Virus record (IMG/VR): IMGVR_UViG_3300013307_000037
Location: 1-33,419 of that record
Reading direction: 5' to 3' (one strand)
DNA: 33,419 bases
From: a virus
A program made the translations under genes and the position numbers. This document shows, one piece after another, positions 2,148 through 25,013 of the stretch (the stretch's first letter is position 1; the number at the start of each line of letters is the position of its first letter). Under the pieces are notes generated by a model, which saw nothing but the letters and a program-made list of their open reading frames with translations, ran no database searches and had not been told where the DNA came from.

Positions 2148-2148
2148 C

Positions 2149-2979
2149 TTACAGTTCAGGTCCCCACGCGCGGTACATGTCTCGCAGCCGCCACTTCTGG
2201 TCGTCCTCAATCCAGTGATAGAAGTGCCTCTGCCACGTCGGAAGGTGATCCCGCTCGACCGAGTTCAGTTCCAGCAGCAGTCTGGGGTAGTCCTCGCGCA
2301 GATCGGCCGGTATCCGGTTCGCGTTGACGACCCAGTGTATCAGGCCGTCTAGCATGTGAAAATCGTAGCACGTCTGGAGTTCCTTGGGTAGTACCGGGTT
2401 CTGAACGACAGTCTCCAGCACCCTCGACCCGCCGACGTGTCGGTAGAACGGTGCCAGTACCTCCTGTCTGTCGGCAGACATCGCGTTCCACACTGCCACG
2501 CTCACCGACCACGGATACGTGCTGGCGTGCTGCGAGCCGCCGTCCGCCACGCGCTCGGCGCGATCCATCGTGGCCGACGGTGGAGGCATCGCCGCGCCAG
2601 CCTGTACTCTAGCCGGATTGCGCATCAGGAAGTCGATGCCCTCGATCGCCATCTGCACGTCGTCCGCAGTGACCCAGCACAGCAGCGCCGTGACGATGCT
2701 CTGCTCGACGAAGTCCAGGCCAGCGTTCTTCATCCACGCCCTAGCTTCCGGGAACTCGTGATCGTTCTTGAACGTCGAGGGCCGCCGCCTGACGCCCTCC
2801 GCCAGCTTCTCGGCATAGTGCTTCGCCTTCTCCAGATCCTGCATCCCGTTCTTCTTGCGCCACCGCGACACGTACTTGGTCGCGCATCCCATGTAGTACT
2901 CCGGACCGAACATGTCCCAGTGCTGCAGTCCGCCGGTCCGGTAGTGGTCGCCGCCCACCTGTCTGTCGTTCGCCTTCAC
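2149..2979 (-). CDS. DUF3310 domain protein with unknown C-terminal region
   Basis: A 276-aa protein. The first 60 or so residues match the DUF3310 (SaV-like, often labelled nucleotide kinase) pattern: a start like VKANDRQVGGDHY, then QHWD, then GCATKYVSRWRKKNG and a helix DLEKAKHYAEKL. The family is very common in phages, usually near nucleotide or replication genes; its biochemical role is unproven. The remaining 200 residues are mostly helical and not recognised, so the protein is much longer than the bare domain. I prefer the GTG at 2979, which overlaps the HD gene stop as GTGA and has GGGAG just in front. An in-frame ATG at 3042 would add 21 residues but overlap the HD gene deeply. Confidence 0.8.
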   Translation of the reverse strand: MKANDRQVGGDHYRTGGLQHWDMFGPEYYMGCATKYVSRWRKKNGMQDLEKAKHYAEKLAEGVRRRPSTFKNDHEFPEARAWMKNAGLDFVEQSIVTALLCWVTADDVQMAIEGIDFLMRNPARVQAGAAMPPPSATMDRAERVADGGSQHASTYPWSVSVAVWNAMSADRQEVLAPFYRHVGGSRVLETVVQNPVLPKELQTCYDFHMLDGLIHWVVNANRIPADLREDYPRLLLELNSVERDHLPTWQRHFYHWIEDDQKWRLRDMYRAWGPEL

Positions 2980-3545
2980 TGCTTCTCCCACGTCAGCCTC
3001 CTCTCTATGTATCTCTTGATATTCGACGCCAGTGCGGGCCACGCGTCTCGCTCGTCCTCTTCAGCGGGCACCTCGCCGCTGAGGATCGCCTCGTACTGCG
3101 CGCTCTTGGCTGTCGACATTCGCATCGACACCGTGCGCCCGTACTGATTGCCGAGGTTCATCTCGTGCAGGCCCCACTCCCACATCTCGACGTACTCGCA
3201 CAGCTTGAACACTGCCCTCTCGAACGGAGAGAGCAGCACGTTCGGTATGCTGTTCGGGAACTCCTCGTTCATTCCGGTCGTCACCTGACGCTCCGCCTCG
3301 TCCATCCGCACCTTGAGCAGCGGGTCCTGAGACTTGAACGGATACTGAACGTCGCCGGCCATCTCGCCGATGTCGTGGTACAGCGCGTAGACCAGCAGGT
3401 GACGCGGAGCGTCCGGCCACACGGTCAGCAGGATGCGCATCACCTGCGCCGAGTGCTCGCCGACGGACTGCTCGCGAATGCGCGGCCAACTGTGATAACG
3501 GGTCAGTTGCAGCCCGACCCTCGGGTCCTTTGCGCAGTTTATCAC
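2976..3545 (-). CDS. HD-domain deoxynucleotide phosphohydrolase (YfbR/DatZ type)
   Basis: A 189-aa HD-superfamily protein, probably a cytoplasmic 5'-deoxynucleotidase or dNTP hydrolase. Visible features are R16-Y17-H18, the first metal ligand H31 in VGEH, the HD pair H57-D58, E61, and G64-D65 with K71. The position normally held by the last metal-binding Asp (in 'KLCD') appears as E117 in KLCEY. Layout and spacing resemble YfbR and, from memory, the dATP hydrolase DatZ of phage S-2L. The GTG start at 3545 overlaps the stop of the thymidylate synthase-like gene (GTGA) and has a strong GAGGAGG in front; a longer frame to 3692 exists but overlaps that gene. Coupling to a pyrimidine methylating enzyme suggests pruning of a host deoxynucleotide pool (inference). 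Which nucleotide it uses cannot be read from sequence. Confidence 0.82.
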   Translation of the reverse strand: MINCAKDPRVGLQLTRYHSWPRIREQSVGEHSAQVMRILLTVWPDAPRHLLVYALYHDIGEMAGDVQYPFKSQDPLLKVRMDEAERQVTTGMNEEFPNSIPNVLLSPFERAVFKLCEYVEMWEWGLHEMNLGNQYGRTVSMRMSTAKSAQYEAILSGEVPAEEDERDAWPALASNIKRYIERRLTWEKQ

Positions 3546-4570
3546 TTCATCCTCCTCAGTATCCACGACGAGCACGCTGCCGCCCAGTCCGGAGCCGCGA
3601 TATTCCGAGCCCAGTTGAGCGCCGAGTGCTTCTCCTTCGTCTTCCACCGATAGTTGGCGATCGCGACCGACGCGGCCACCTCGGCGAACCAAGCGTTGGC
3701 GTAGGTCTCTCGCGAGTAAAGGTCATGAGCATCGACTTCGCATCCAGTGTTGCTAGCCCACAGCACGTTATCGTGCCAAGCCATGAAGCGCGTCAGGTCG
3801 GCGTCCCACTCTTCCCACCGACTGGCGATCGGCATCGGGTGCATGTCCGCGACCGCGTAGGGATCGAGGTGCGACTCGGACGGTCGCACCTTGTTCAGCA
3901 CCTGCGTGTAGCCGTGCCAGTTGTTGCTGAACTGGTACATCGTTCCGACACCGACACCGATGCGCCCCGCCAGATACTCCTGAAGCATCGAGAAGTGCAC
4001 GGCGTTGGCACCGTATGCACCCCAGACTATGTCGTTCGATCGGCAGCACACCGTCAAGTCTAGGACTCCCCCCCGGATGCGACAATACAAGTGCGTGTTG
4101 CAGGGGCGGTCTTTCCAGTCGCCAGTCAAGTCGTTATTGCGATCCGAAGCATCCCACATCTGAATGACAGCCTGCCTATCGTTGAGGTTGGCGCACAGCT
4201 TGTGTATCACATCTTCCAGCTGATCACTAAAACCGAAGGCTTCGCGCCAGCGATGCCCGTATGCACCGTGGATATTGCCGTCCGTCTCTCCGAATCGGTC
4301 ACCGAAGTCTCCGACGTAGCGGTTCAGGAAGGCGGCGTCCCGGCGACCGGCCAGCATCCACAGGCTCTCCATCAGGTGGAAGAACGGGTTGGCGTCCCGT
4401 ACTGGATCGAACAGCACTCGCTCCGTCGGAGACTGATACACCGACATCACCGGCGTATCCGACACCAGCGCCGTGCCGTTGCGCGTGTCGCACAGCCTGC
4501 CGCACCAATCCAGAATGTCGAACCCCTGCTTCCACAGTTCGTTGACGTTTCGTCCCTCGATCACTATCAA
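3542..4570 (-). CDS. Thymidylate synthase-superfamily enzyme, possible dUMP hydroxymethylase
   Basis: A 342-aa member of the ThyA/dNMP hydroxymethylase superfamily, which transfers a one-carbon unit from folate to C5 of a pyrimidine nucleotide. The nucleophilic Cys is C157 in RPCNTH; classical ThyA has PPCH there. The RSND motif (D180) is followed by GAYGANAVHF, where N189 probably corresponds to the uracil-reading Asn of ThyA after a one-residue insertion; dCMP hydroxymethylases carry Asp. HGAYGHRWR (101-109) matches the folate-side YGxxWR motif. Substrate is therefore probably dUMP. Whether the product is dTMP or 5-hydroxymethyl-dUMP is undecided; the nearby DNA-kinase-like genes favour the latter. 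The start is TTG at 4570: AAGGAG lies 7 bases before it and it overlaps the upstream stop as TTGA. A GTG two codons later is the alternative. Confidence 0.85.
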   Translation of the reverse strand: MIVIEGRNVNELWKQGFDILDWCGRLCDTRNGTALVSDTPVMSVYQSPTERVLFDPVRDANPFFHLMESLWMLAGRRDAAFLNRYVGDFGDRFGETDGNIHGAYGHRWREAFGFSDQLEDVIHKLCANLNDRQAVIQMWDASDRNNDLTGDWKDRPCNTHLYCRIRGGVLDLTVCCRSNDIVWGAYGANAVHFSMLQEYLAGRIGVGVGTMYQFSNNWHGYTQVLNKVRPSESHLDPYAVADMHPMPIASRWEEWDADLTRFMAWHDNVLWASNTGCEVDAHDLYSRETYANAWFAEVAASVAIANYRWKTKEKHSALNWARNIAAPDWAAACSSWILRRMK

Positions 4571-4917
4571 TGCAGTGCTCCTTTCTGCTGCTCCACATCA
4601 CTCAGCTTCCTGAGCCAGTTCGCTGTCAACTCCCTCGTGTCCTCGACCAGCGTGGACAGTATCGCCTCGAAGCGGCGCTCCACTTCGGCGTGGTCCGTCA
4701 CCTCCTGCCCGTCGTCACCGCGCACGGCCAGAGCGCGCAGCAGCGTCGTGATGACACTGATCGTGGTGTACTCCACCTGCGCCGCGCAGACGTTGTTGCA
4801 GTTCATCATGTGCACCAGCATCTGGCACATGCCGGTGCTGATCTGGGCTATCGTGAAATCCAACTTGTCCTCCTGCAACACCTTGCAGTCGCATCTCTTG
4901 ATGTATCTCTCGTGCAT
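4567..4917 (-). CDS. Small hypothetical protein, Cys-rich N-terminus
   Basis: A 116-aa protein I do not recognise. It has Cys residues near the start (RCDCK) and further along (MNCNNVCAAQ), then a mainly helical, charged C-terminal half. The ATG at 4917 has GGAGAG about 7 bases in front. Its end is coupled to the thymidylate synthase-like gene by a TTGA overlap, so it is probably translated with it. Its first 203 bases are also covered, out of frame, by the run-on end of the upstream gene at 4715-5152. No function can be assigned. Confidence 0.7.
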   Translation of the reverse strand: MHERYIKRCDCKVLQEDKLDFTIAQISTGMCQMLVHMMNCNNVCAAQVEYTTISVITTLLRALAVRGDDGQEVTDHAEVERRFEAILSTLVEDTRELTANWLRKLSDVEQQKGALH

Positions 4918-5152
4918 AGACTCTCTCCAATCCCTTCTGTGGTAGATACTCCTCACTCCGGCAGCCGTCCCACTGTATGCAGACACCTGCCAGACTGTCG
5001 ACCGGATGTCTGGACACGGTACCCTCTCTGGTCTCCCACGTCCAGCCGCCCTTTCGCTGCGCATTCCTGGACCTCGTGCTTCTCGAGAGAGCCGCCGCAG
5101 CCTCAGGCGTCAGGCGCACGCGCTCGCCCTTCTTCCACGTTCCCAGTGCCAC
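4715..5152 (-). CDS. Small SH3-like or KOW-like beta protein with run-on tail
   Basis: A 145-aa frame whose first 75 residues look like a genuine small phage protein: KKGERVRLTPEAA, then a GTV strand, then QWDGCRSEEY and LERVY. This resembles short SH3-like beta-barrel proteins with a KGxxVRLTPEA signature. The GTG at 5152 has GAGGG 7 bases in front and follows the previous stop by 9 bases. The C-terminal 65 or so residues are His/Gln/Arg-rich and read like the shadow frame of the 116-aa gene below, with which they overlap by 203 bases. Either the stop is simply absent and the tail is tolerated, or a frameshift has removed the natural stop. Function unknown. Confidence 0.6.
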   Translation of the reverse strand: MALGTWKKGERVRLTPEAAAALSRSTRSRNAQRKGGWTWETREGTVSRHPVDSLAGVCIQWDGCRSEEYLPQKGLERVYAREIHQEMRLQGVAGGQVGFHDSPDQHRHVPDAGAHDELQQRLRGAGGVHHDQCHHDAAARSGRAR

Positions 5153-5161
5153 GATTTTCCC

Positions 5162-5377
5162 TCAGTCTAGCCCGGAGTAGTCCGGCTCGTCTGCCCTTCT
5201 TCGCTTCCACTCGGCGCAGCCGTCGCTTGCGCGAGTGACCTTCCAGTCCCGGCTGTCGGCCGCCAGCGTGCAGTACGCCACTAGGTAGCCGTCCTCGTGC
5301 TTCTTCAGCGCGTGCGTGGACCAGTGGCCGCAGTCGCCGCACCGCTTAGGCAGCACTCGCGTCTCCCCTGCTCGCAT
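5162..5377 (-). CDS. Small Cys-rich (zinc-finger-like) protein
   Basis: A 71-aa protein with a CGDCGHW motif, then YCTL and a later CAEW. This four-Cys layout is common in small phage proteins and probably binds zinc. GAGGAG lies 10 bases before the ATG at 5377. It overlaps the end of the glycosylase-like gene by 32 bases. The function is unknown; small zinc proteins of this type accompany nucleotide and DNA-modification genes in many phages but have no assigned role. Confidence 0.68.
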   Translation of the reverse strand: MRAGETRVLPKRCGDCGHWSTHALKKHEDGYLVAYCTLAADSRDWKVTRASDGCAEWKRRRADEPDYSGLD

Positions 5378-5855
5378 CCAGGTACAACTCCTCTAGCAGC
5401 AACTCCACCACCTTCACGTTCTCAGGCTCGTTGTACCAGCGGTTCAGCCCGGACGGATGCGGTATCTGTCGCCAAGTCACGCCCCCGATCACCGTCGGGT
5501 GGACGAGAACGGGGGGCAGCCCCTCGTCGCCGAACAGACTGCCGTCCCCGCGCAGCACGAAGTCGAACGCCCTGCGCACCTCGTTGCCCAGCAGCACGAC
5601 CGTGCGACCGCTGTCACGCAACTCGACGACGTACTCGTACGCCTTGGCGCGGGCCTGCACCTTGTCGAACGCCGCGCCGCGCACGAGGTTGCGCCGCTCG
5701 AACGTCTCGAGGTACTGACGCATCGTGGCTCCGGTGCGCGCGCTGAGCATCTTCCAGATGCGGTTGCCGGTGCATCCGTCCGGGAGCGGGTATAGCTCGT
5801 GACCCGCCCGGGTGCTCACCGGGTTGTTCATGCCGATCAGGATAGGCTTAGCCAT
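5346..5855 (-). CDS. Uracil-DNA glycosylase-superfamily protein
   Basis: A 169-aa protein that looks like a member of the uracil-DNA glycosylase fold. It has an N-terminal ILIGMNNP loop (residues 6-12) in the place of the water-activating motif, a VVLLGNEV strand at about 86-93, and a C-terminal HPSGLNRWYN (133-142) that matches the His-Pro-Ser DNA-intercalating motif. UDG-like proteins of this kind have been noted in phage base-modification clusters, where they may act on, or only bind, altered pyrimidines. The ATG at 5855 overlaps the kinase gene by 19 bases with GGAG about 11 bases in front; an ATG at 5876 would add 7 residues. Activity is uncertain because the classical catalytic Asp is not obvious in the first motif. 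Confidence 0.68.
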   Translation of the reverse strand: MAKPILIGMNNPVSTRAGHELYPLPDGCTGNRIWKMLSARTGATMRQYLETFERRNLVRGAAFDKVQARAKAYEYVVELRDSGRTVVLLGNEVRRAFDFVLRGDGSLFGDEGLPPVLVHPTVIGGVTWRQIPHPSGLNRWYNEPENVKVVELLLEELYLDASRGDASAA

Positions 5856-6361
5856 TCGCGCGCTTGCTCCAGACATTGATCGCGGTTGCCCTCGTACGTT
5901 GGTATCCCGGCTTCCCGGAACGCCAGTGCGTGTCTGCGGACCTGTAGGTAGACCCGCTCGATGCTGGCGGGCTTTATATTATGCCCGCGCTCGCGGACAC
6001 TGGCAATGCACTTCTCTACCGACGTGTCTAGCACCAGCGCGCGCACGTCGTGCCCGGCGGCCCGCGCCCGCATGACGTTCGACGCCCCGTCGCTCAGGCA
6101 CTTACCCTCCATCACGACGCTGTACTTTTTCTGCAGACTGATGGCCAGATCGTACGCCTCCGAGATCGACTTCAGAGTGTCCACGCCGCCGTTCTTGATC
6201 TCGTAGTGACCCAGCACGACTATCCTACCCAGATAGATCGTGTAGTAGGGCTTCTGGCGGCCGTCCTTCATGATCGGCAGCCCAGCGCCCAGCGGCTCGA
6301 CCAGCCGCCGGACCAGCGTCGATTTCCCGGAGCCGGACGGCCCGCGCACAGTGATGATCAA
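5837..6361 (-). CDS. Small P-loop kinase, likely for modified thymidine in DNA
   Basis: A 174-aa P-loop kinase. Walker A is GPSGSGKST at residues 7-15. The next motifs are GHYE (51-54) with GG.D (58-61) and a hydrophobic strand ending MEGKCLSD (84-91), then an Arg-rich lid-like region. The GHYE...GG.D signature recalls phage P-loop kinases associated with thymine hypermodification, including 5-hydroxymethyl-dU DNA kinases. In those proteins, as I recall, the kinase is joined to a helical domain; here the helical domain is a separate gene at 8808-9704. I start it at TTG 6361, which overlaps the glycosyltransferase stop as TTGA, with AAAGGGG 7 bases in front. A general nucleotide kinase role remains possible. 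Confidence 0.78.
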   Translation of the reverse strand: MIITVRGPSGSGKSTLVRRLVEPLGAGLPIMKDGRQKPYYTIYLGRIVVLGHYEIKNGGVDTLKSISEAYDLAISLQKKYSVVMEGKCLSDGASNVMRARAAGHDVRALVLDTSVEKCIASVRERGHNIKPASIERVYLQVRRHALAFREAGIPTYEGNRDQCLEQAREWLSLS

Positions 6362-7326
6362 GACAGCGCCCCTTTCCTGGCATCGTCGATCTGCGCCATC
6401 AGCGCTGCGCGAGGATCGATCAGGTTCGCCCATCTCGCGCGCTGCTCCTGCCCGATGTCCTCTCGGCTGGCCATGTAGCGCTTCAGGTCTCCGCCTGCGT
6501 GCAGCGCGTAGGGCTCCGGATCGTAGCCCGCCTTGCGCAGCATACTGCCGCACTCCGGCGAGAACACCATCGGCAGACCGGCCGACAGCATCTCGTAGAA
6601 CCGATTCGCCGGAGAGTGGAACTCCTCCGACGACTTTCGGTCCTCGATGTAGAGACCGAGCCCCTTGGTGCCCAGCGCGTCGTAGAAGTTCTCCGTGATC
6701 GCGCCGAGATGCGCACACTTCGGGTATCTGTTGGCGAACTTGTCCACCGGGCTCGAGATAACTGTAGGCACCTTCGGCTCGCGGAAGTACCTGTCGAACA
6801 GCGGTACCCGGGACGACTTGCCGCTGCCGTCCCTGAACGAACCGTAGTAGAATAGGGAATGGCCCGCCGACTTGCGCCGGTTCCGGATCGTCTTCTCGTC
6901 GTAGTTCTCGTCAAATGTCAGCATGTTCCAGTTCACGTAGTAGCTTCCCGGACGCTCGGACCACTTGTGGCACGTCGACCAGAACGAGACCGGCACGTCG
7001 CCGCGCTCGCGTCGCGTTATGAAAGCCTTTCGGAATGGACTGGTCGCGTCGCCGTTGTCCTTCGGCGGGATGATCGTGTAGTCGTTCTGAACCCACACCA
7101 CCCTGCGCGCTCCGAGAATAGCTCTCGCCAACTCCGACAGACACGGAGAGAACCCGTAGGCTCCGTTGACGATCACGAGCGTGTCCAGCTTGTCGTGGTC
7201 CCCGATGTCCTTGGTCCAGATCAGGGGTGCGTCGAGGTACTGCTCCAGGAAGCGCGCGATGCGCACGCTCGCCACCATGCTGTTGTCGGACACCCTGACG
7301 AAACTGAATATGGCTGAGTTTCTCAT
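6358..7326 (-). CDS. GT-B-like glycosyltransferase
   Basis: A 322-aa protein resembling GT-B glycosyltransferases. Evidence is a middle strand FYYGSFRDGS and a C-terminal SPANRFYEMLSAGLPMVF, the usual place of the sugar-nucleotide-binding loop (small residue, E, and 'aGlP'). The N-terminal half has VRIARFLEQY and a VIVNGAYG loop of the acceptor Rossmann domain. The ATG at 7326 overlaps the upstream stop as ATGA. It lies directly between the P-loop kinase and the radical SAM gene in one translationally coupled series, which suggests that its acceptor is a modified base in phage DNA and not a cell-surface glycan. The sugar donor and acceptor cannot be told from sequence. Confidence 0.72.
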   Translation of the reverse strand: MRNSAIFSFVRVSDNSMVASVRIARFLEQYLDAPLIWTKDIGDHDKLDTLVIVNGAYGFSPCLSELARAILGARRVVWVQNDYTIIPPKDNGDATSPFRKAFITRRERGDVPVSFWSTCHKWSERPGSYYVNWNMLTFDENYDEKTIRNRRKSAGHSLFYYGSFRDGSGKSSRVPLFDRYFREPKVPTVISSPVDKFANRYPKCAHLGAITENFYDALGTKGLGLYIEDRKSSEEFHSPANRFYEMLSAGLPMVFSPECGSMLRKAGYDPEPYALHAGGDLKRYMASREDIGQEQRARWANLIDPRAALMAQIDDARKGALS

Positions 7327-7547
7327 TTCGCTACTGCCTCCACTGTTATCTTCACTCTGTCGCCGCTGCTGATATCTGGACGGTGCTTGCCGAAGTGCAG
7401 GGCCGCTGGCCAACTGTCGAGCACAACGTACCATCCCTCGGAGTCCTCCGCAAACTCCGCGTCCTTGCCTACTCCGCGCACCCATCGCTTGGCCGCGCGC
7501 TCCTCGACCTTGGCCACGACACCGCTGAACGTGTATCTGTTTCTCAC
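7323..7547 (-). CDS. Small hypothetical protein
   Basis: A 74-aa protein, mainly predicted beta strand, with a central GWYVVLDSWPAALHFG segment and a C-terminal SGDRVKITVE strand. I do not recognise the family. The GTG at 7547 overlaps the radical SAM stop (GTGA) and has GGAGGG 4 bases in front; its own stop overlaps the glycosyltransferase start (ATGA). Conserved coupling on both sides argues that it belongs to the modification cluster, perhaps as an accessory subunit. Confidence 0.65.
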   Translation of the reverse strand: MRNRYTFSGVVAKVEERAAKRWVRGVGKDAEFAEDSEGWYVVLDSWPAALHFGKHRPDISSGDRVKITVEAVAK

Positions 7548-8395
7548 TTCGCCCTCCAGTACTGCTTCTTCTCGTCGACGTCCAGCGACACGGCTCTCGA
7601 GCACGTGCGACAGAGCGACCCCTTTCCGGCGTGGTACTGCATCGTCTCCCACCGCAGAATGTTGAATTGACTGCTGATGAACAGGTCGTAGTAGTCGTCG
7701 AGCAGCAGATTACCCAGCACGTGATGCTTCGAGTAGTCCATGCAGCACAGCACCACGTCGCCGTTCGGCAGCAACACGTTGTGATCGAAGAACGGTGTCA
7801 TGCTGCACGTGACCGGCGTATCGTGGTGCAGGTCCCGCTCTACCATCTGCCCTGCGATATTCTGCTGGTTCAGGTTTCCGGCGCGCGTCAGGCCGTGCCA
7901 CGGTAGCCAGCCGGGCGTGGCCACCGCGCTGTCCTCGTCCATCTGCACCTTGTCGTAGCGCACGGTAGAGTTCGCCAGTTCGTCGAAGCGACGCAGCGCC
8001 TCGCGATACGCGTCGCTGTCGCGGAACCCGCGCATGTTGCCCCTTGTGTCCGGCAGATGCACGACTACGACTTCCACCTGAGCGGCGTGCGCGAGTATCA
8101 GATCGACGACGTACTCCGGGTCTCTCATGCCCTGTAGCGTGGTGTAGATCGCGACGTTGTACCCCTCGCTCAGTGTCAGGGCGAGCATGTGCGTCGCGGC
8201 GCGGTTCATCCACGGTTCGGCCATGCCCGAGAAGTCGATCCTCACGTGCTTCGGCACCTTGGCCAGCACGCGGCTGAAGTTCTCGAACGTCAGCACCCGA
8301 ACAGGATCGTCGTAGGCGGCCGACAGCTTGTCCTGCGGACAGAACGTGCACTGTAGCGGGCAGCCCACCATCGTGGTTATCTCTAGCGTCGGCAT
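7544..8395 (-). CDS. Radical SAM enzyme with SPASM-like C-terminus
   Basis: A 283-aa radical SAM protein. The [4Fe-4S] ligands are C12, C16 and C19 (CPLQCTFC). SGMAEP at 56-61 fits the GGE-like SAM-binding element. The C-terminal part has C197, LLPNGDVVLCC (217-218), then C262 and C265, which is the layout of a SPASM/Twitch auxiliary-cluster domain. Such enzymes make difficult C-H changes on peptides, sugars or amino acids. The ATG at 8395 has AGGAGG 8 bases upstream and overlaps the GIY-YIG gene stop (ATGA). Radical SAM enzymes occur in known thymine hypermodification pathways of phages, and the neighbours here suggest the same use. It shows no sign of being QueE or another deazaguanine enzyme. 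Confidence 0.88.
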   Translation of the reverse strand: MPTLEITTMVGCPLQCTFCPQDKLSAAYDDPVRVLTFENFSRVLAKVPKHVRIDFSGMAEPWMNRAATHMLALTLSEGYNVAIYTTLQGMRDPEYVVDLILAHAAQVEVVVVHLPDTRGNMRGFRDSDAYREALRRFDELANSTVRYDKVQMDEDSAVATPGWLPWHGLTRAGNLNQQNIAGQMVERDLHHDTPVTCSMTPFFDHNVLLPNGDVVLCCMDYSKHHVLGNLLLDDYYDLFISSQFNILRWETMQYHAGKGSLCRTCSRAVSLDVDEKKQYWRAK

Positions 8396-8811
8396 CAGGA
8401 TTTCCTCCTAAATCGACCCTGTCTGTGTTGTTCTTTAGCTTGTTTCGACAATTTTTCACGGGCACCGGGCGTCGCCAAATATCTAATTCTTCCACGGCTC
8501 AGTCTCTCACGCAAATCGTCGGATAATTTATACCCCGGCAATCTTTCATTCAAAAGTTTCCCAGGCCAAGTCTGCATCACTTCTATTTCTCGTAATCTAA
8601 TTTCTTTATTTCGACAGAAAACCACCAGCACAAATACCCACTCTGGTTCTTTTATCTTATCCCATAATTCTTGTAACTCACGACTCGTATGCTCGCCACT
8701 TCTAAGCATCACCCTGTGCCACGTATATCTATTGGTGACATGGACACTGGACCCAATGTAAGCTGCACCAGTTGGGATATGAATAATGGCATATACTCCA
8801 CGGGCACTCAT
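8395..8811 (-). CDS. GIY-YIG homing endonuclease
   Basis: A 138-aa free-standing GIY-YIG nuclease. The motif appears as GVYAII (5-10) and AYIGSS (17-22), followed by the conserved Arg region NRYTWHR (27-33) and a later catalytic Glu in REIEVMQTW. The C-terminus, with SDDLRERLSRGRIRYL and AREKLSKQAKEQH, looks like NUMOD3-type DNA-binding repeats. Its DNA is clearly richer in A+T than both neighbours, a sign of horizontal acquisition. It sits between the hypermodification helical-domain gene and the radical SAM gene and overlaps both by 4 bases (ATGA at each end), so it may promote spread of this cluster. The ATG at 8811 has a long G run 7 bases in front. Confidence 0.9.
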   Translation of the reverse strand: MSARGVYAIIHIPTGAAYIGSSVHVTNRYTWHRVMLRSGEHTSRELQELWDKIKEPEWVFVLVVFCRNKEIRLREIEVMQTWPGKLLNERLPGYKLSDDLRERLSRGRIRYLATPGAREKLSKQAKEQHRQGRFRRKS

Positions 8812-9704
8812 CTATAAACCCCCCTTGGTCTACCTTCGCCGAGTCTTACACGTTCAAATTTATCAAATTCGCAGAGCGTGTGCTCCACGTCGCGCATCTC
8901 CCACGCTGGCCAATCCTGTGGCCAGTGCTTCGCGTCCCGAGACCACGACAGCAGGATGCGCATCTCGTCGATCACCTGATCTCGAGGCACCTTGTCGCTG
9001 CGGTCGCCGCGGAACACTCGGTTGGCTCCGCGGTGCGCCCCCGGTCCAGGATTCGCCCACGTCATGATGTCCGGCGCGCGGCTCAGCAGCGCCGTGTGCC
9101 GCAGATCCGTCACTATCTCGTAGGCGTGAAACGATCCGAAGTAGTCGAACTCGCGCAGCCACTCCCACGCCATCTGAAGCGAGACCTGCGGATCCTCCGG
9201 CATCTGTTCGGCGTACACGCGCCAGTCGCTATTCCTGTAGAATCGCCGGATCACCTCGAGAACTCCGTCCAGCTTGGAATAGCCGGGGGGTGAGCTGATG
9301 ATGTAGGCTCCGGTGACGTACGGACCCTTGCCGCAGTTGGCGAGTACGGCTTTCTTCAGGTGCTTCACGTTGCCGTCCTTCATGAACAGCGAGAAGGCGT
9401 TGTCGGCCTCGATGTCCTTCTGGCAGAAGATCGCCTCGCCCACCTCGATCCGGTTCAGGAGACGAAAGACCACCGTCGCCAGCAGCACCTCCGGCTGCTC
9501 GCGCATCGGGTCGCGCACGTTGCGCGCGAACCACAGTGTCGTCTTGTCCAACTCCCTGAACACGTTGGTGAACCTGTACGTGTCCAGTATCTTGTCCTTG
9601 GTCCACGGTCTAGGCATTCCAGACATCCGGTTCAAGTAAACCTGATGTCTGGAACGCGCGTACCCGAAGAACCGCTTGGTACCGTCCCTTGCTGTCTTGT
9701 TCAC
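8808..9704 (-). CDS. 5-hmdU DNA kinase helical-domain (aGPT-PPlase) protein
   Basis: A 298-aa protein resembling the family first named alpha-glutamyl/putrescinyl-thymidine pyrophosphorylase and later, as I recall, the helical domain of 5-hydroxymethyl-dU DNA kinase (HMUDK_hel). Diagnostic segments are PWTKDKIL (33-40) followed by FTNVFRELDKTT (45-56), a middle GAYIISSPPG, a GSFHAYEIVTDLRH segment and NPGPGAHRGANR. The fold is all-helical and glycosylase-like. No P-loop is present; the kinase is encoded apart at 5837-6361. The GTG at 9704 overlaps the upstream stop (GTGA) with GGAG 6 bases in front. Presence of this family is the strongest single sign that the phage hypermodifies thymine. The exact reaction of this separate domain is inferred. 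Confidence 0.82.
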   Translation of the reverse strand: MNKTARDGTKRFFGYARSRHQVYLNRMSGMPRPWTKDKILDTYRFTNVFRELDKTTLWFARNVRDPMREQPEVLLATVVFRLLNRIEVGEAIFCQKDIEADNAFSLFMKDGNVKHLKKAVLANCGKGPYVTGAYIISSPPGYSKLDGVLEVIRRFYRNSDWRVYAEQMPEDPQVSLQMAWEWLREFDYFGSFHAYEIVTDLRHTALLSRAPDIMTWANPGPGAHRGANRVFRGDRSDKVPRDQVIDEMRILLSWSRDAKHWPQDWPAWEMRDVEHTLCEFDKFERVRLGEGRPRGVYR

Positions 9705-9877
9705 GCCGAACTCCTCTCCGGTCTCCAGACCCAGCAGCCGAATTCCCAGTGGTACTCTCCCAGCTTGTCGCCCGCGCGCAGCAGACTAGGACGCCTGTGC
9801 ACGACGATCACGTGGCCGCCGTGCGCGAGCCACGTCCCGTCCCGAGGGCCGCCCAGACAGGGACCCTCGTTGGTCAT
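9701..9877 (-). CDS. Small conserved phage protein (GGPRDG...WVWRP)
   Basis: A 58-aa protein of a type seen in many phages: an N-terminal CLGGPRDG, an AHGGHVIVV strand, then GEYHWEFGCWVWRPE. It is probably a small beta-rich protein of unknown function. The ATG at 9877 overlaps the exonuclease stop (ATGA), and its own stop overlaps the start of the helical-domain gene (GTGA). A longer frame to 10219 is only the shadow of the exonuclease. Confidence 0.72.
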   Translation of the reverse strand: MTNEGPCLGGPRDGTWLAHGGHVIVVHRRPSLLRAGDKLGEYHWEFGCWVWRPERSSA

Positions 9878-10431
9878 CGCAGCCGCGCGTAGGCCGCCTG
9901 AACGCACCGCGCCTGATGGATCGCGTCGTCCAGCGCGTTGTGGTGCGAGCCCTGCCGCTTCATCGCGAACGGGTTGAACTTGCACACGTCGTAGGCCGTG
10001 CGGGTGCAGCGGCTGTCCCAGAATTTCCACGGACACTCCTGTCCGACTGCGCGAGCGGCGGCCTCGAATACCGGCTGATCGAAGTTGGCACCCTGCGACC
10101 AGACGAATACGCCGCGCTCCTTGCGGAACCAGTCGTTGAACGCTCGCACCACTGCGGCCAGCGGCTTCTGGTCGATAAGCAGCGCGTCCTGCACCTCCTT
10201 CTTCTGCTTGGCCCACCACGCCTTGGTACCGGCGTCCACCGTCAGGCCAGCCTCGAAGCAGCTACCGTCGTCCACCGTCGAGTAGAACTTCTCCCCGATC
10301 TCGCTGCTGAACGGGTCGAACGTGCACGCGCCCACGCTCCGGATGGCGCTGCCGGGTGTCGTACCCCACGTCTCCAGATCCAGCATGATGTTGATCTGAT
10401 TCGGCAGGGCGTCTGTTAGAAATACTCGCAT
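9874..10431 (-). CDS. DEDDh-family 3'-5' exonuclease (ExoVIII/RNase T-like)
   Basis: A 185-aa RNase H-fold exonuclease. Metal ligands are D18 and E20 in MLDLETWG, D118 in WSQGANFDQP, and H164 with D169 in HHNALDDA, so the DEDDh set is complete. Layout resembles the small phage exonucleases related to the exonuclease VIII nuclease domain. It probably trims DNA or RNA 3' ends during replication, recombination or host DNA breakdown. The ATG at 10431 has AAGGAG 5 bases in front. The first 170 bases are also covered out of frame by the run-on end of the small upstream gene. Confidence 0.9.
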   Translation of the reverse strand: MRVFLTDALPNQINIMLDLETWGTTPGSAIRSVGACTFDPFSSEIGEKFYSTVDDGSCFEAGLTVDAGTKAWWAKQKKEVQDALLIDQKPLAAVVRAFNDWFRKERGVFVWSQGANFDQPVFEAAARAVGQECPWKFWDSRCTRTAYDVCKFNPFAMKRQGSHHNALDDAIHQARCVQAAYARLR

Positions 10432-10579
10432 CGTGTCTCCTTGCTGCGGCCTGTACGCCGCCGGTTGTGTAGTTCCTGTCGTATCTGCGGCTCAACTCGA
10501 TCGCAACTTGCCGCCAGTTTCGATATACGTTCTCGTATAGACCTATCGCTTCCATCACCGGTACTGCTCTGCGTCCCAT
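10262..10579 (-). CDS. Small HTH/Myb-like protein with run-on tail
   Basis: A 105-aa frame. Residues 9-50 look genuine and helical, with NWRQVAIELSRRYDR and TTGGVQAAARR, like a Myb- or GcrA-type DNA-binding tri-helix. From about residue 51 the frame overlaps the exonuclease by 170 bases and becomes His/Arg/Gly-rich, as expected of a shadow frame. The ATG at 10579 lies one base after the helicase stop (TGACATG), so it is translationally coupled. It may be a small transcription regulator; not certain. Confidence 0.5.
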   Translation of the reverse strand: MGRRAVPVMEAIGLYENVYRNWRQVAIELSRRYDRNYTTGGVQAAARRHDASISNRRPAESDQHHAGSGDVGYDTRQRHPERGRVHVRPVQQRDRGEVLLDGGRR

Positions 10580-19943: not shown

Positions 19944-20227
19944 TACTTGTCTCCCAGCATGCAGTTCTGGGTCACCACGTCCCAGAATCCATTGGTGTCG
20001 GTGCACTTCTCGGCGTCCTGCTGCACGGCGTTCGCGGCGTCCTCAGCCTTCTTGTCCTTGGCCTTGACGTCGGCGATCGCCCGGTTGTAGCCGAGATTGA
20101 CGTAGTGCTCGCGAATCACGATCGCGCCGCCAACGGACGAGGCGATACAGATAGCGTAGATCACGACCCGGAGCGGCGAGATTCCGAAGAACCCAGCCAC
20201 AGTGTTGAGAATAGAAAGCTGTAGCAT
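19943..20227 (-). CDS. Inner-membrane protein, candidate i-spanin
   Basis: A 94-aa protein with one N-terminal transmembrane segment (about 19-38) and a charged helical region (DVKAKDKKAEDAANAVQQDA), ending with a CTDTNGFWDVVTQNC loop with two Cys. Topology (membrane anchor plus periplasmic helix) suits the inner-membrane spanin that connects with the lipoprotein encoded next. The ATG at 20227 overlaps the endolysin stop (ATGA) with AAGGGAG in front. Confidence 0.62.
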   Translation of the reverse strand: MLQLSILNTVAGFFGISPLRVVIYAICIASSVGGAIVIREHYVNLGYNRAIADVKAKDKKAEDAANAVQQDAEKCTDTNGFWDVVTQNCMLGDK

Positions 20228-21492
20228 CAGTTAAGTCTCCCTTTGTTGTAATCACTGGTGGCCGCCTTGGCCGCCTTGGTCGAAGCGTACCAAACCGCAC
20301 AGGCCAGCAGACCCGCCAGAACGAACCACGCCTCCGGCGGCACCTTGGCGAAGGCGTCCTTCACGCTGGACATCTTGTCCTGCACGCTGCTGAAATAGTC
20401 GCTGACCGAGTTGCCGGTCAGTCCGACGGCCGCGCCGCCCGCTGCCACCTTGGCCCAGAAGCGCTGGATAAGCGAGAGACGCACGGTGTCCAGGTGCTTA
20501 AGGTCCTTCGGAGCGGCGCTGGCTCGAGAGTCGTTGATAGGTCGCTGCCAGTTCTCGTTGATGGCGTCGTCGACGGCGTCCATCAGCTGATCGTTCATCG
20601 CGGGCACCGCCTCGATGCCGCGATCGATGTAGAACGTGGTGACGGCACCGGCTGTCTGGCTGCCCCACTTGCCGTCCAGGTCGCCGACCGTGAAGTAGCC
20701 CATGTCGTGCAAGTCCTGCTGCAAGATCAGAACACGATGATCGTACCGGCCGGGTCGCGGCCCCCCGCTCCGCGAGACCGGGGGTGCGCTGTCCACGTGG
20801 TCCGACTGGGCCTCGACGGTGTGCGAACTGGTGGGCTCGCCGCTGGTGGGCTCGCCGCCGCTGTGCCAGACGAGGGCTAGGGTCTCCTGAGAGTCGATCT
20901 GCTTGCTGACCACGTTGAGATCCACCTCGCCACCGACGCCTGGAATCGTGTGCGGCTGCGGTCCGACGCGTCCGTCGGTGTACTGCCACAGGAAGAAGTC
21001 GGTGAAGCCGTCCGGCAGACGCGCCTGCGGCCCGTACTGGCACAGCCAGAGCAGTTTCTCGCAGAGGTACGCCCTGTCGGCAGCGGACAGCTTTCCGATG
21101 TTCTCCTTCAGTCGGTTGCCGCTGTAGATCGCGCAGTTGTAGCCGCGCGTCTCGACCAACTTCAGGAACTGCACGGCCTGCGTGATCGACATGTTGGACT
21201 TCGGATTGTCCTCGAAATCGAGCACCAGCAGGGTCTCGGCGTCCGGGTCGGCGTAGCGCAGGAAGTTGCTGACCTGGGACACGATGTCTGAGCCGTCGTT
21301 GAAGTGGTACGCGCCCCACAGCAGACCGGCCGCCTTGGCAGCGCTGCGCCGCTTGACATAGTCCGGATCGCGGTAGCTGCTGCCCTGTGTCGCCTTGTGA
21401 ATGACCCCCCAGATACCGGCCGAGGCGACGGCCTCGAAGCTGGCGACGCTGTTGTGGTGACTGATGTCGATTACGCGCGGTGTCATTGTCAT
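20227..21492 (-). CDS. Endolysin: GH25 muramidase, PG-binding domain, C-terminal TM
   Basis: A 421-aa cell-wall hydrolase. Residues 5-195 form a GH25 (Chalaropsis-type) lysozyme domain with VIDISHHN (D9), LDFED (D92, E94) and FLWQYTDG (167-174). After a Ser/Thr/Pro/Gly linker with an EPTSGEPTS repeat comes a peptidoglycan-binding-type domain (about 251-317: VLILQQDLHDMGYFTVGDLDGKWG). Near the C-terminus a transmembrane segment lies at about 388-405. No N-terminal signal is present. A C-terminal membrane anchor on a muramidase is unusual and may control its release. The ATG at 21492 overlaps the upstream stop (ATGA) with GAGGAC in front; ATG 21486 is also possible. Confidence 0.92.
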   Translation of the reverse strand: MTMTPRVIDISHHNSVASFEAVASAGIWGVIHKATQGSSYRDPDYVKRRSAAKAAGLLWGAYHFNDGSDIVSQVSNFLRYADPDAETLLVLDFEDNPKSNMSITQAVQFLKLVETRGYNCAIYSGNRLKENIGKLSAADRAYLCEKLLWLCQYGPQARLPDGFTDFFLWQYTDGRVGPQPHTIPGVGGEVDLNVVSKQIDSQETLALVWHSGGEPTSGEPTSSHTVEAQSDHVDSAPPVSRSGGPRPGRYDHRVLILQQDLHDMGYFTVGDLDGKWGSQTAGAVTTFYIDRGIEAVPAMNDQLMDAVDDAINENWQRPINDSRASAAPKDLKHLDTVRLSLIQRFWAKVAAGGAAVGLTGNSVSDYFSSVQDKMSSVKDAFAKVPPEAWFVLAGLLACAVWYASTKAAKAATSDYNKGRLN

Positions 21493-23141
21493 CTGAGCCA
21501 GTCCTCGTTGGGTTTGCCCAGAAGCTGCGCGGTCCAGCCGCTCATGCTTCTGGCGTACGGAAGCATCTCCTGATGTCTAGTCTGCCACGCTCTCGTGAAG
21601 GCCGTGACGGCGTGCCACTTCTGGCCGCGGAACCCGTTGGGGCTACTGTCCATGGGCACGCCGCAGAACACGATCTTGTCGTGTCCGTGCTCGCGAGCCA
21701 CCTGATACGCGAACAGTCCGCTGCTGCCGCCCCAGTCCCGCAGCATCTTGCCGCGCGGCGGGTTCAGCTTGCGCGCCCCGTCGTGGCACCACAGTTCGAG
21801 TGGGGGCTCCAGCCCGTTGTTCTTGCGCTGACCTAGCCACGTCGGCAGCTTGTCCGGATGCAGCGTGCAGGCCACGACGGGATGCGGGAACTCGCCGATC
21901 TGATCGTTCACCACGTAGTACTCGACGCGGTTACCTCGGAACATGGTCTGAAGTTCCATCAGGTCTCGCTGCCAGCACTCCGCACCGCCGACTACGATCG
22001 CCACGCGGCTACCGGGCGCGGGCTGCTCGGCGACCGCGGTCGAGCGACGAGCGATGAAACAGTTGTTGGCGAACCACCACGTCTGCTTGTTTCGCGCGCG
22101 CAGCATGTCGCACAGTTCAGTAGTCAGCTGCTCGTCTATCTCGAAGCCGCGCGCACGAAACTTGGCGTACCAGTACGGTCGCTCCTGCTCGTTGACGTGG
22201 CAGTGGCCGCCGAACCCAGCCTTGGCCGCGCTGAACAGAACGGCGTGCTCGGCAGCGTTGCACACCGTGTCCACCAGCGTGTCGGCGTACTTCTCCTCGA
22301 CGTGCTCGGCGACCTCGGTGCAGATAGCCACGTCGTGCTTGCCCACGTCTAGCGGCTGCGTGAGATCGCGTATCACGGCGTCAGGAAAATGCTTCAGTAC
22401 GTTGGTGCTACCGTCCACCCCGAGAATTGCCTTGCCCAAGCCGCCGAGTGCCTGAAGGATGTAGCCGTTGCCACAGCCGAAGTCCACGGCGCTGTTGAAG
22501 TGCAGACGAGCGTCGAGCCACTTGGCGATATTGACATATTCGTTGCGCCAGCCGACGTGCATCTGGTAGAACTTGGCGTCGTAGTCTGCATCCAGGTTGC
22601 GCGCTATGTCGCCCGGCTTGGTACCCTCGAAGCACATGCTCTCGAGCGCGTTGAACTCGTCTCCGATCACGTGACCATGACCCTCGACGCTGATCAGCGC
22701 CTTGTGGCTGCTGTCGCCGGGTAGACACTCCTCTATCCTATCGAAGCCCACGTACTTCAGCGTCGATCGCATCAGGCTCGCTGTCCACCCTGCCTCGTGA
22801 CCGTGGCAGAATATCATGGCGTGCAGGGCACCCTTACGATCGGGGGTCGGCGCCCAGCCTCGCTGATGCACCCAGTTGTAGTATCGCTGATTATCTGACT
22901 CCGCCAGCTTCTCGAGGCTCGGCACCGTCACTCGCAGCACGCCACCGGGCCGCAGCACGCGCAGCGCCTCGTCGAAGAACCGCACGGCATCGTGAAACTT
23001 GACGTGCTCCACGCAGTGCTCTATGAAGATGAAGTCTGCTGACGCCGTGGGCCACGGCAGAGGCTTGGTGATATCTACGTCGCGATCGTGATTCGACCAG
23101 CCGGGTAGCTTGTTAGTACCGCATCCCAGATTTAGTTTCAC
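21489..23141 (-). CDS. Fusion: two SAM methyltransferases plus MptE-like domain
   Basis: A 550-aa protein with three units. Unit 1 (1-160) is a class I SAM methyltransferase: LNLGCGTNKL at the start, DFIFIEHCVEHV, LRPGGVLRVTVPS. Unit 2 (185-365) is a second methyltransferase: AVDFGCGNGYIL (218-229), AILGVDGS, VAICTEVAEHV. Unit 3 (379-550) starts with RVAIVVGGAECW and later has SSGLFAYQVAREHGHDKIVFCGVPMD, which resembles the DUF115/MptE-like Rossmann family. Sugar or surface-polymer modification is likely. The GTG at 23141 overlaps the next gene stop (GTGA) with AGGAG 6 bases in front. Joined to two glycosyltransferase-like genes, it may decorate virion glycans or DNA. Confidence 0.8.
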   Translation of the reverse strand: MKLNLGCGTNKLPGWSNHDRDVDITKPLPWPTASADFIFIEHCVEHVKFHDAVRFFDEALRVLRPGGVLRVTVPSLEKLAESDNQRYYNWVHQRGWAPTPDRKGALHAMIFCHGHEAGWTASLMRSTLKYVGFDRIEECLPGDSSHKALISVEGHGHVIGDEFNALESMCFEGTKPGDIARNLDADYDAKFYQMHVGWRNEYVNIAKWLDARLHFNSAVDFGCGNGYILQALGGLGKAILGVDGSTNVLKHFPDAVIRDLTQPLDVGKHDVAICTEVAEHVEEKYADTLVDTVCNAAEHAVLFSAAKAGFGGHCHVNEQERPYWYAKFRARGFEIDEQLTTELCDMLRARNKQTWWFANNCFIARRSTAVAEQPAPGSRVAIVVGGAECWQRDLMELQTMFRGNRVEYYVVNDQIGEFPHPVVACTLHPDKLPTWLGQRKNNGLEPPLELWCHDGARKLNPPRGKMLRDWGGSSGLFAYQVAREHGHDKIVFCGVPMDSSPNGFRGQKWHAVTAFTRAWQTRHQEMLPYARSMSGWTAQLLGKPNEDWLR

Positions 23142-23812
23142 TTTTCACTCCTGTCATTGTAGAATTGCTCCATCACGTCTATAGTCGCGTGCGTGAGCCA
23201 GTCCAACTTGTAGCTGCCGAGGTTCGCCACGGTCAGCGCCTTGAAGTCGTCGCGCATGGTGCGCCAGTTCAGGTATCTCAAATCGCGACCAACCAGTCCG
23301 CGGATCACAACCTCCGGCTCTGGTCGGCGATTGCGCCGCTCCCAGTCGTACTGCTGAAGAAAATTATTCGCCCTGATCCAGCTAGTGCGGAACAGCATCA
23401 GGCCGGTCTCGACCCAGTGATGCGGCGCACTGCTGACACGAGTGCTGGCGACCTGCACATTCTGGTGCTCCATCCAACCGATAGCGGGCTCGATAAGTGG
23501 CAGCAGCAGACTGTCGCACTCCACGTGTATCGCATAGTCGTAGCCCTCGGCGATAGCCCGGAACAGGCCGTAGCTGAAGGCTCTACCCCAGCCGTCGCGG
23601 CCGCCGCGCGACAGATGACCGATATTGTCCCGGAAAGAGTAGTACCGAATGGGCATCGGAATGTGCGGCAGGGACGGACTCTGGCTGTCCACCACCATCA
23701 CGTCTAGACCCTCGCGCTTGTTCCGAAGCGCGAGAGCCGACCACATCTCGAGTACGCGCGCCTTCTCCGGACCGTCGCTGTAGCACGTTCCGAATAGGAG
23801 CGCGCGCTTCAC
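23138..23812 (-). CDS. Glycosyltransferase-like protein (GT-A-like)
   Basis: A 224-aa protein with ALLFGTCYSDG at the start, a MVVDSQSPS strand, a GWGRAFSYGLFRAI helix and YAIHVECDSLLLP, where ECD takes the place of the DxD metal-binding motif of GT-A enzymes. The later WVETGLMLFRTSW fits the acceptor side. It is short for a full GT-A enzyme. GTG start at 23812, overlapping the upstream stop (GTGA), with only a weak Shine-Dalgarno sequence, so it is probably translated by coupling. Confidence 0.6.
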   Translation of the reverse strand: MKRALLFGTCYSDGPEKARVLEMWSALALRNKREGLDVMVVDSQSPSLPHIPMPIRYYSFRDNIGHLSRGGRDGWGRAFSYGLFRAIAEGYDYAIHVECDSLLLPLIEPAIGWMEHQNVQVASTRVSSAPHHWVETGLMLFRTSWIRANNFLQQYDWERRNRRPEPEVVIRGLVGRDLRYLNWRTMRDDFKALTVANLGSYKLDWLTHATIDVMEQFYNDRSEK

Positions 23813-24042
23813 GTGTTGATCACCGCGTTGAGTGCAACCAGCGCGCGATACGGATCGAGCAGTTCGGTGGTGCCGATGGTGTTGGCCTTGGCAGCGTTGA
23901 TGCGCGCCGCAGCCAGCGTCGGGTCACCCTCGGACCACTTGTCGTGGATCGTAGTGGTGCCCAGCGCCAGATCGATGTCCTTGAGTTCCCTGATGGGATC
24001 CAGGAGATCGAAGTTGTTCAGGACTGTGTGGACTCGTGCCAT
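23809..24042 (-). CDS. Small hypothetical protein
   Basis: A 77-aa helical protein (LLDPIRELKDIDLALG, LAAARINAAKAN) without a recognised family. The ATG at 24042 has GGAG 8 bases in front and lies 25 bases inside the end of the GT9-like gene. Its size and position between two glycosyltransferase-like genes suggest an accessory or structural role, but nothing supports a specific function. Confidence 0.6.
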   Translation of the reverse strand: MARVHTVLNNFDLLDPIRELKDIDLALGTTTIHDKWSEGDPTLAAARINAAKANTIGTTELLDPYRALVALNAVINT

Positions 24043-25013
24043 TGCTTGGTCTCCATTGGCAGGTTATCTATGAACTCCCGAATGCGCCTGCTCGCTTCGG
24101 GGATGTCGATCGCTTTGTTGCAGTTGCGCGGACAGTACTTCATGACCCCGTGACACTTGCAGGACACGATCGGATCGATGCCGAGTGTCGGAGCCAGATG
24201 CACCCCCGCTCTCTGCGTCGTGTCGTAGTTCTCGCGCCCCCCGTACACCGTGATGGAGGGCGTGCCGACGGCCTGCGCCAGAACGGGGGCGTTGCCCGCG
24301 CAGCAGAAGACTGCGTCTGCCTCGGCGATCAGGGCCGCCATGCCTGCCATCGACAGTGCCCCGTCGTGCGACGTGAAGTCTACGTCCCGCTCCACCGCTC
24401 CGACGATCTGCTCCTCCGGACCCAGATAGGCAAGGCTGACGACAAAGAAGTCTTGACGGGCGACCCTGTAGAGTGAGGCGTAGCTGAGCCAGTCCGGGTT
24501 TCTTCGCTTGCTCTCTGGCCACTCCCTGCGATAGACCACTGGGCGATAGACCATGAGCGGGCGATCGAATTTGTACCCGGTCATCTCTAGGAAGCGCAGT
24601 GCCTCGTCGCGCCACTCGCTGCGCACCGGCAGCGTGAAGTCAGGGGCGACGCTCGATGGCAGCCCGGCGACACGCATCATCGTATCGAGGATCGACCCGT
24701 ATCTGTCTATCTCGTGCTTGTGGTACCAGTTGCGTATCACGCGGTTGGTACGCGGTATGGACGACACGCTCCTGTAGATGCCGGGAAATTGTTCGCGCTC
24801 GCGCGCTATGTTCTGCCAGTGGCCCCACAGTCGCGTCTGCCGCAGCACCAGCTTCACGTCGTACTGTTCGATCAGATCGAGGTGTATCCAGGCGTGGCAG
24901 GTCTCGAGCCAGATATCGTAATTCGGCAGCAGCGACTTAAGAACCGCGCGCTGATGCACGCAGTCCCCGATGCCGTACATGCCGATATAGTGGAGAGGCG
25001 TGCGCGTCATCAC
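24018..25013 (-). CDS. GT9/heptosyltransferase-like glycosyltransferase
   Basis: A 331-aa GT-B-type protein resembling the ADP-heptose:LPS heptosyltransferase family. Visible features are IGMYGIGDCVHQRAVLKSL at the N-terminus (the G.GD loop) and LSMAGMAALIAEADAVFCCAGNAP (about 237-260) followed by AQAVGTPSITVYGG, the usual donor site. A Cys-rich stretch near the C-terminus (CKCHGVMKYCPRNC) is unusual and may bind a metal. It starts at GTG 25013 (GTGA overlap) or ATG 25010. It directly follows the tail fibre gene, so virion or fibre glycosylation is possible; DNA-base glycosylation is the alternative. Confidence 0.75.
   Translation of the reverse strand: MMTRTPLHYIGMYGIGDCVHQRAVLKSLLPNYDIWLETCHAWIHLDLIEQYDVKLVLRQTRLWGHWQNIAREREQFPGIYRSVSSIPRTNRVIRNWYHKHEIDRYGSILDTMMRVAGLPSSVAPDFTLPVRSEWRDEALRFLEMTGYKFDRPLMVYRPVVYRREWPESKRRNPDWLSYASLYRVARQDFFVVSLAYLGPEEQIVGAVERDVDFTSHDGALSMAGMAALIAEADAVFCCAGNAPVLAQAVGTPSITVYGGRENYDTTQRAGVHLAPTLGIDPIVSCKCHGVMKYCPRNCNKAIDIPEASRRIREFIDNLPMETKQWHESTQS

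Follow-up and report, generated by a model that had tools for sequence, protein, structure and literature searches.

What base does a phage make when the genes of thymine hypermodification stand together with a glycosyltransferase? The question is raised by a series of minus-strand genes (positions 2976-9704) in the virus record IMGVR_UViG_3300013307_000037, which was analysed over its entire 33,419 bases and is referred to here as the window. Alongside a predicted glycosyltransferase (GT), the series encodes HMUDK_hel, a P-loop kinase, a ThyA-superfamily enzyme, an HD-domain nucleotidase and a radical SAM/SPASM protein (Table 1). Known phage routes through 5-hydroxymethyl-deoxyuridine (5-hmdU) run mainly via amino acids, and the best-known target of DNA glycosylation is 5-hydroxymethylcytosine (5-hmC). 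We propose, with a probability of roughly 0.65, that this operon makes glycosylated 5-hmdU in phage DNA, a chemistry predicted throughout from homology and structural models. Gene content, homology and cassette statistics are directly established, the fold of the GT comes from a model and its active-site residues from an alignment. A first-pass annotation of the letters alone had suggested a thymine hypermodification locus with an unusual glycosyltransferase, and this has held up, with HMUDK_hel and the kinase falling in the expected families. We regard the locus as a real one for thymine modification, representing a glycan branch that is built on a family distantly related to T4 beta-glucosyltransferase (BGT) and exclusive of the amino-acid branch, and the predicted product as likely.

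The glycosyltransferase and its T4 counterparts

Sequence searches of Pfam, PHROG, NCBIfam and PDB returned zero matches for the window GT, and with its family as query the only matches were Glyco_trans_1_2 (0.034) and chance-level PDB entries. An AlphaFold2 model built on a 21-sequence alignment reached a predicted local distance difference test (pLDDT) score of 92.2 and a predicted template modelling (pTM) score of 0.90. With this model, Foldseek placed T4 DNA alpha-glucosyltransferase (AGT) at the top (1e-7). A VIA-align comparison covering 1000 chains ranked T4 BGT first (1nzd; Z 20.2, 290 residues, 3.6 A) and T4 AGT second (1y8z; Z 17.0), with the remaining GT-B enzymes at Z <=16.3. The assignment of the protein to GT-B rests on the model, which agrees with the first-pass description of a GT-B-like glycosyltransferase as the unusual element of the series.

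The presumed active site is also recognisable, by a pairing of residues that was made from sequence motifs and a profile alignment (E 2e-4) and not by coordinate superposition. In this pairing, YLFTDIRLP of BGT (D100) corresponds to WVQNDYTIIPP of the window GT (D82), YGGSFRSGQR (S189, R191, R195) to YYGSFRxG...R (S163, R165, R173), and LRVWETMAS (R269, E272) to ANRFYEMLSAG (R242, E245). D82, R165, R173, R242 and E245 are invariant in the 21 sequences, and with the S189 counterpart included the set is invariant or nearly so. We take D100 of BGT to be the catalytic residue, and R191, R195, R269 and E272 to bind uridine diphosphate (UDP); the title of PDB entry 1nzd names a D100A mutant of BGT. 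The invariance of the catalytic Asp in the GT family fits a hydroxyl acceptor. The window GT is therefore probably an unrecognised relative of the T4 DNA glucosyltransferases that forms a new sequence family, with sugar transfer as its predicted activity.

The likeness to T4 BGT and AGT thus comprises a predicted GT-B fold and counterparts of Asp100 and of the UDP-binding Arg and Glu residues, and it extends to genomic context, since T4 b-gt adjoins gene 42, which encodes a ThyA-superfamily hydroxymethylase, and the window GT likewise has a ThyA-superfamily neighbour. Unlike the T4 enzymes, to which it has no usable sequence similarity, the window GT is accompanied by HMUDK_hel and a kinase, and its expected acceptor is 5-hmdU rather than 5-hmC. 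Virus-encoded DNA glycosyltransferases are also the subject of Pyle 2024, a study that is said to treat 5-hmC.

Glycan and amino-acid branches among viral cassettes

A profile scan of IMG/VR yielded 47 viral contigs with the GT family, in which neighbours were counted within the fetched flank. HMUDK_hel and/or ThyA lie near the GT in 45 of these contigs, and the other two end at a contig edge beside the GT. None of the 47 GT loci carries the amino acid:DNA transferase (AADT, aGPT-Pplase2), a pyridoxal phosphate (PLP) enzyme, a flavin adenine dinucleotide (FAD) lyase, an acetyltransferase or an M6-type radical SAM gene. The converse scan, starting from AADT, yielded 80 loci, 77 of which have the kinase, none the window GT family and one the TET-associated glycosyltransferase TAGT (PF20691). 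Across 77 HMUDK_hel loci, AADT is found in 1/47 with GT or TAGT versus 17/30 without (Fisher 3e-8), and the subset found by HMUDK_hel alone shows the same split (1/29 versus 12/25; 2e-4); the contigs share descent, so that these p-values overstate independence. Each of the three labels requires no fewer than 4 to 6 changes on well-supported branches of the HMUDK_hel tree. A whole-contig search did not find AADT on 18 of 19 GT or TAGT contigs, and the 33,419-base window itself contains no homologue of AADT, the PLP enzyme, the FAD lyase, the acetyltransferase or the M6 radical SAM protein.

The GT family and the amino-acid branch are thus mutually exclusive. An amino-acid-type product was rejected on this exclusivity and on the missing AADT and tailoring enzymes. 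The absence of AADT from all 47 GT loci, together with TAGT in the corresponding slot of sister cassettes, makes glycosylated 5-hmdU likelier than an amino-acid-type base. Minimal cassettes of GT, HMUDK_hel, ThyA and HD that lack the kinase also exist, including on contigs of 61-68 kb.

In these sister cassettes TAGT occupies the position between HMUDK_hel and ThyA. The clearest case is L031, whose backbone (hel-u109-X-kin-UDG-ThyA-HD) matches that of the window with TAGT as X. It is among the closest HMUDK_hel relatives and nests within GT-bearing rows on the HMUDK_hel tree, where the window clade (14 rows, 99%) comprises eight TAGT rows, five GT rows and zero with AADT. TAGT is an established DNA glycosyltransferase family, which transfers a second glucose onto 5-hmC in T2 and T6 (PMC13216743), and the slot is accordingly a glycosyltransferase slot; the same paper also cites work on viral enzymes that glycosylate DNA. 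TAGT cassettes differ from the window in having another glycosyltransferase family and in being usually kinase-free. Such slots also hold sugar-related genes, namely an NAD-dependent epimerase (L035), an FkbM methyltransferase (L074) and a PfkB sugar kinase (L016).

Relatives of the GT are present in cultured isolates, the Escherichia phages EP_H11 and IME392 and the Cronobacter phages S13 and LPCS28, which make thymine glycosylation testable now. In EP_H11 the homologue lies beside HMUDK_hel, a P-loop (AAA_28) kinase, ThyA and HD (L007:8292-14607). The EP_H11 cassette further contains a PIG-L-type deacetylase and a GT-A-like protein, both assigned by eye from sequence. Compact, kinase-free hel-TAGT-ThyA-HD cassettes (L055:8953-11602 and similar ones in L054-L069 and L084) form a larger second set with predicted thymine glycosylation. 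At another locus, a C5-cytosine methylase gene (L028:4586-5968; Pfam 2e-16) lies between GT and ThyA.

Pathway genes, proposed route and competing readings

ThyA is 41% identical to SN1_017 of SN1, an M6-like phage with a published cassette (PMC9476957). Its nearest PDB relative is the CMP 5-hydroxymethylase 5b6d, and its GANAVHF site is as in M6/PaMx11-type enzymes and differs from T4 gp42. It is predicted from these comparisons to be a dUMP 5-hydroxymethylase. The HD gene neighbours ThyA-type genes likewise in M6- and PaMx11-type phages, and the predicted target of its product is the pool of thymidine nucleotides.

The window kinase is 32% identical to PaMx11_49 (3e-23), which places it in the 5-hmdU kinase family. 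The HMUDK_HMUD1 model matches it below cut-off (7e-5 in one search, 3e-4 in another) and is matched by 14 of 25 members of the kinase family, at best with 2.9e-19. It falls in its own clade with other glycosyltransferase-cassette kinases (support 99/99). The conserved GHY..GG.D and EG motifs are common to AADT-cassette kinases, which makes 5-hmdU a plausible substrate. The kinase is present at all 71 AADT loci with HMUDK_hel or ThyA, at 25 of the 47 GT loci and at few TAGT loci.

HMUDK_hel is 47% identical to PaMx11_50 and 36% to SN1_020, with values of 47-48% across PaMx11/Ab18-type phages (Mesyanzhinovviridae) and about 36% across M6-type phages. The Pfam match listed in Table 1 confirms its earlier assignment as HMUDK_hel/aGPT-PPlase-like, and the protein occurs in almost all 5-hmdU cassettes observed. 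Its AlphaFold2 model (pLDDT 95.2) is nearest to 8z2n, the PaMx11 5-phosphomethyl-dU glycinyltransferase (Z 11.4), and next to HhH-GPD DNA glycosylases (Z 8-9.5), structural matches that call for caution in a helical fold. Profile comparison with AADT was weak (E 9.5e-4), and PDB sequence searches gave chance-level lectin matches only. HMUDK_hel is predicted to bind DNA and base. A role as a mere domain or subunit of the kinase is weakened, given that it accompanies GT or TAGT on contigs of 61-68 kb in which the kinase was not found. One contig carries a second, divergent HMUDK_hel copy (L036:14066-14902).

We hypothesise that the ThyA-type enzyme would form 5-hm-dUMP, that the HD protein would deplete the normal thymidine nucleotide pool, and that kinases of the host or phage, together with DNA polymerase A, would incorporate 5-hmdU in DNA. 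HMUDK_hel, through its DNA-glycosylase fold, could then recognise or flip the modified base, and the T4-BGT-like GT, with Asp82 acting as base, would use a UDP-sugar to glycosylate the hydroxymethyl oxygen. The product would be a base-J-like or larger glycan that protects the DNA against nucleases of the host. The kinase probably phosphorylates part of the 5-hmdU or of the attached sugar, and the radical SAM protein may or may not tailor the sugar added by the GT.

In favour of this proposal, T4 BGT itself can glucosylate 5hmU to base J in vitro (PMC4111573). Several points count against it. T4 BGT acts on 5hmU in single strands, or in duplexes only opposite G (PMC4111573), so that 5-hmdU:A pairing would need adaptation. 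The record is itself a fragment of a virus genome. The kinase shares its motifs with AADT-cassette kinases and is encoded in the same operon as the GT, which makes a phosphorylated intermediate possible. The kinase could accordingly make 5-phosphomethyl-dU, with the GT linking a sugar to the phosphate to give a phosphodiester-linked glycan on thymine. The usual position of the kinase next to the GT, where it is present, speaks for this chemistry, as do its acceptor motifs, since the AADT partner of such kinases uses 5-phosphomethyl-dU according to the title of 8z2n. However, the kinase-less GT cassettes, also those on long contigs, and an invariant catalytic Asp suited to a hydroxyl acceptor argue against it, and we consider it unlikely. 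Similarly tentative is an elaborate form of thymine glycosylation, a doubly decorated base in which 5-hmdU would be phosphorylated by the kinase and glycosylated by the BGT-like enzyme, with the sugar remodelled in DNA by radical SAM/SPASM proteins, the class as a whole being a widespread glycan branch exclusive of the amino-acid branch. The wider class defined by GT or TAGT with HMUDK_hel often includes a radical SAM protein of ~330 amino acids, a sugar kinase, an epimerase, an FkbM methyltransferase or a PIG-L deacetylase.

That the GT instead glycosylates 5-hmC as in T4, with the ThyA homologue making 5-hm-dCMP, would suit the nearest solved relatives of both proteins, CMP 5-hydroxymethylase and T4 BGT. 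It is nevertheless improbable, as ThyA is closest to the M6/PaMx11-type enzymes for 5-hmdU-derived bases, has their GANAVHF site rather than that of T4 gp42, and is accompanied by HMUDK_hel and a kinase family that mark 5-hmdU pathways. We find it harder still to accept an M6/ViI-like amino-acid hypermodification, with radical SAM chemistry late and a sugar added by the GT. Kinase, HMUDK_hel and ThyA are indeed common to M6 and PaMx11, but the first-pass view of the series as an extension of the M6/ViI route finds no support, given the absence of AADT, the PLP enzyme, the FAD lyase and the M6-type radical SAM protein from the window, the lack of mixed loci in either scan and a radical SAM protein of another family. 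It is very improbable indeed that GT and radical SAM genes serve to modify the surface of virion or host and lie in a DNA operon by chance. This may be partly true of the radical SAM gene, whose relatives occur in tail-proximal glycan clusters, but almost all GT loci are in a 5-hmdU cassette, and the fold and active site of the GT match DNA glucosyltransferases.

Glycosylated 5-hmdU, our preferred product, can also be set against known systems. The PaMx11/Ab18 and M6/SN1 cassettes resemble the window in having ThyA, HD, HMUDK_hel and the kinase near DNA polymerase A. They differ in that the window has the GT replacing AADT, FAD lyase, acetyltransferase, PLP enzyme and M6 radical SAM protein, and a kinase in its own clade. 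The simplest product expected here is the glucosylated 5-hydroxymethyluracil known as base J in kinetoplastids, but in this case a phage would form 5-hmdU already at the level of nucleotides, and genome-wide. Thymidine of Yersinia phage YerA41 is reported to bear a substituent of ~1 kDa with apparent oligosaccharide character (PMC9023294), a likeness to the sugar-like substituent proposed here that is drawn from the description of the chemistry. A full-text literature search combining hydroxymethyluracil, kinase, radical SAM and glycosyltransferase did not find such a system; key thymidine papers were outside this search. If the proposal is true, a recurrent, dedicated branch of thymine glycosylation widens phage anti-restriction chemistry and accounts for many unannotated cassettes. 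It could also supply enzymes that glycosylate 5-hmU opposite A; a 2014 study stated that efficient enzymes for producing base J DNA were still lacking (PMC4111573).

The radical SAM gene, operon layout and neighbouring genes

The window radical SAM protein conserves C12-C16-C19 (CxxxCxxC) and the SPASM cysteines. It gave no blastp match to SN1_022, and its four tblastn matches included no M6-like phage, so that a function as the M6 isomerase was ruled out for want of homology to SN1_022 and the M6 radical SAM protein. It is 59% identical to the product of a gene on contig L030, which lies near tail genes in a GT9-GTA-rSAM-FkbM-methyltransferase cluster. This contig is without HMUDK_hel and ThyA, and its tail region is related to that of the window (tail proteins 51% and 35%, GT9 40%, GT-A 39%, methyltransferase 50%). 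At 21489-25010 the window still has its GT9, GT-A and methyltransferase genes, as part of a cluster that probably comprises virion or surface glycan genes, and its radical SAM gene sits in the DNA operon instead. None of the 80 nearest viral radical SAM relatives belongs to a 5-hmdU cassette, and eight are with GT9; seven cassette relatives searched whole have neither this radical SAM family nor GT9. The gene was probably derived from a tail-proximal glycan cluster. Its role in DNA modification is doubtful, true recruitment and mere relocation being indistinguishable here, and the same holds for the earlier idea that it acts late on the base, given its different family and its nearest relatives in tail-proximal glycan clusters.

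A separate radical SAM/SPASM family of ~330 amino acids accompanies the GT, in many cases between GT and kinase (L012:8978-10009, L014:1887-2900 and relatives). The window protein was excluded as a member of this usual GT-cassette group by its family and gene position. SPASM radical SAM genes occur at 21 of 47 GT loci and at none of the 80 AADT loci, which makes it plausible that, in the cassette class, radical SAM chemistry acts on the DNA glycan. Among bacteria, the window radical SAM protein has its closest relatives mainly in Alphaproteobacteria (Rhodopila, Acetobacteraceae, Rhodoblastus; L289-L299), which hints at the hosts that such phages may infect.

All genes across 66-14754 are on the minus strand. 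The modification genes run in the order HMUDK_hel, GIY-YIG, radical SAM/SPASM, small open reading frame (ORF), GT, kinase, UDG-like, small ORFs, ThyA and HD, with neighbours mostly overlapping by 1-4 bases, and HD is followed by a DUF3310-like gene and the gene for DNA polymerase A. The single coupled series described by the first-pass annotation is therefore confirmed. All genes it named are present, with agreeing profile matches for those other than the GT; the UDG label is weak for the window protein taken singly and moderate for its family. The series also includes a GIY-YIG gene, which may encode a homing endonuclease or a functional partner, and a small conserved ORF, neither of which it had listed. 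The homology of the series exceeds chance by far, and independent contigs show the same arrangement of genes. At the nucleotide level, phage records resemble the window over no more than 87 bases, within ThyA.

Table 1 Genes of the modification series and of the tail-proximal glycan cluster in the window
Feature	Positions	Strand	Basis
HMUDK_hel / aGPT-Pplase1 protein, 298 aa	8808..9704	-	Pfam PF18723 1.1e-43; phrog_2396 1.8e-59
GIY-YIG endonuclease-like	8395..8811	-	GIY-YIG 0.0012 (below cut-off), phrog_13862 9.8e-7
Radical SAM/SPASM protein, 283 aa	7544..8395	-	SPASM 1.9e-7, Radical_SAM 8e-6
Small conserved ORF, about 74 aa	7323..7547	-	homologues at equivalent position in L010, L011, L031
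GT-B DNA glycosyltransferase (predicted), T4 beta-GT-like, 322 aa	6358..7326	-	AlphaFold2 model and structure comparison
P-loop kinase, 5-hmdU DNA kinase family	5837..6364	-	GTG start at 6364 inferred; AAA_33 1.8e-8
UDG-superfamily-like protein	5346..5855	-	phrog_12275 4.8e-17
ThyA-superfamily enzyme, predicted dUMP 5-hydroxymethylase	3542..4570	-	Thymidylat_synt 6.5e-18, phrog_5131 1e-93
HD-domain nucleotidase	2976..3545 (start approximate)	-	YfbR-like 7.8e-6, phrog_7076 dATP triphosphohydrolase 1.9e-8
Tail-proximal glycan cluster: endolysin, two-domain methyltransferase, GT-A-like, GT9-like	20227..25010	-	Methyltransf_11 8.7e-17, Glyco_transf_9 1.9e-4

The UDG profile matches the window protein weakly (0.035) and 5 of 14 members of its family, at best with 1.5e-4; the family motif is HPSGxNxWYN. 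M6-type phages encode members of this family too, away from the modification cassette (L002:17566-18072, L053:2818-3318), so the family is not confined to the glycan branch. The GIY-YIG gene adjoins HMUDK_hel repeatedly, in the window and in L011, L020 and L038.

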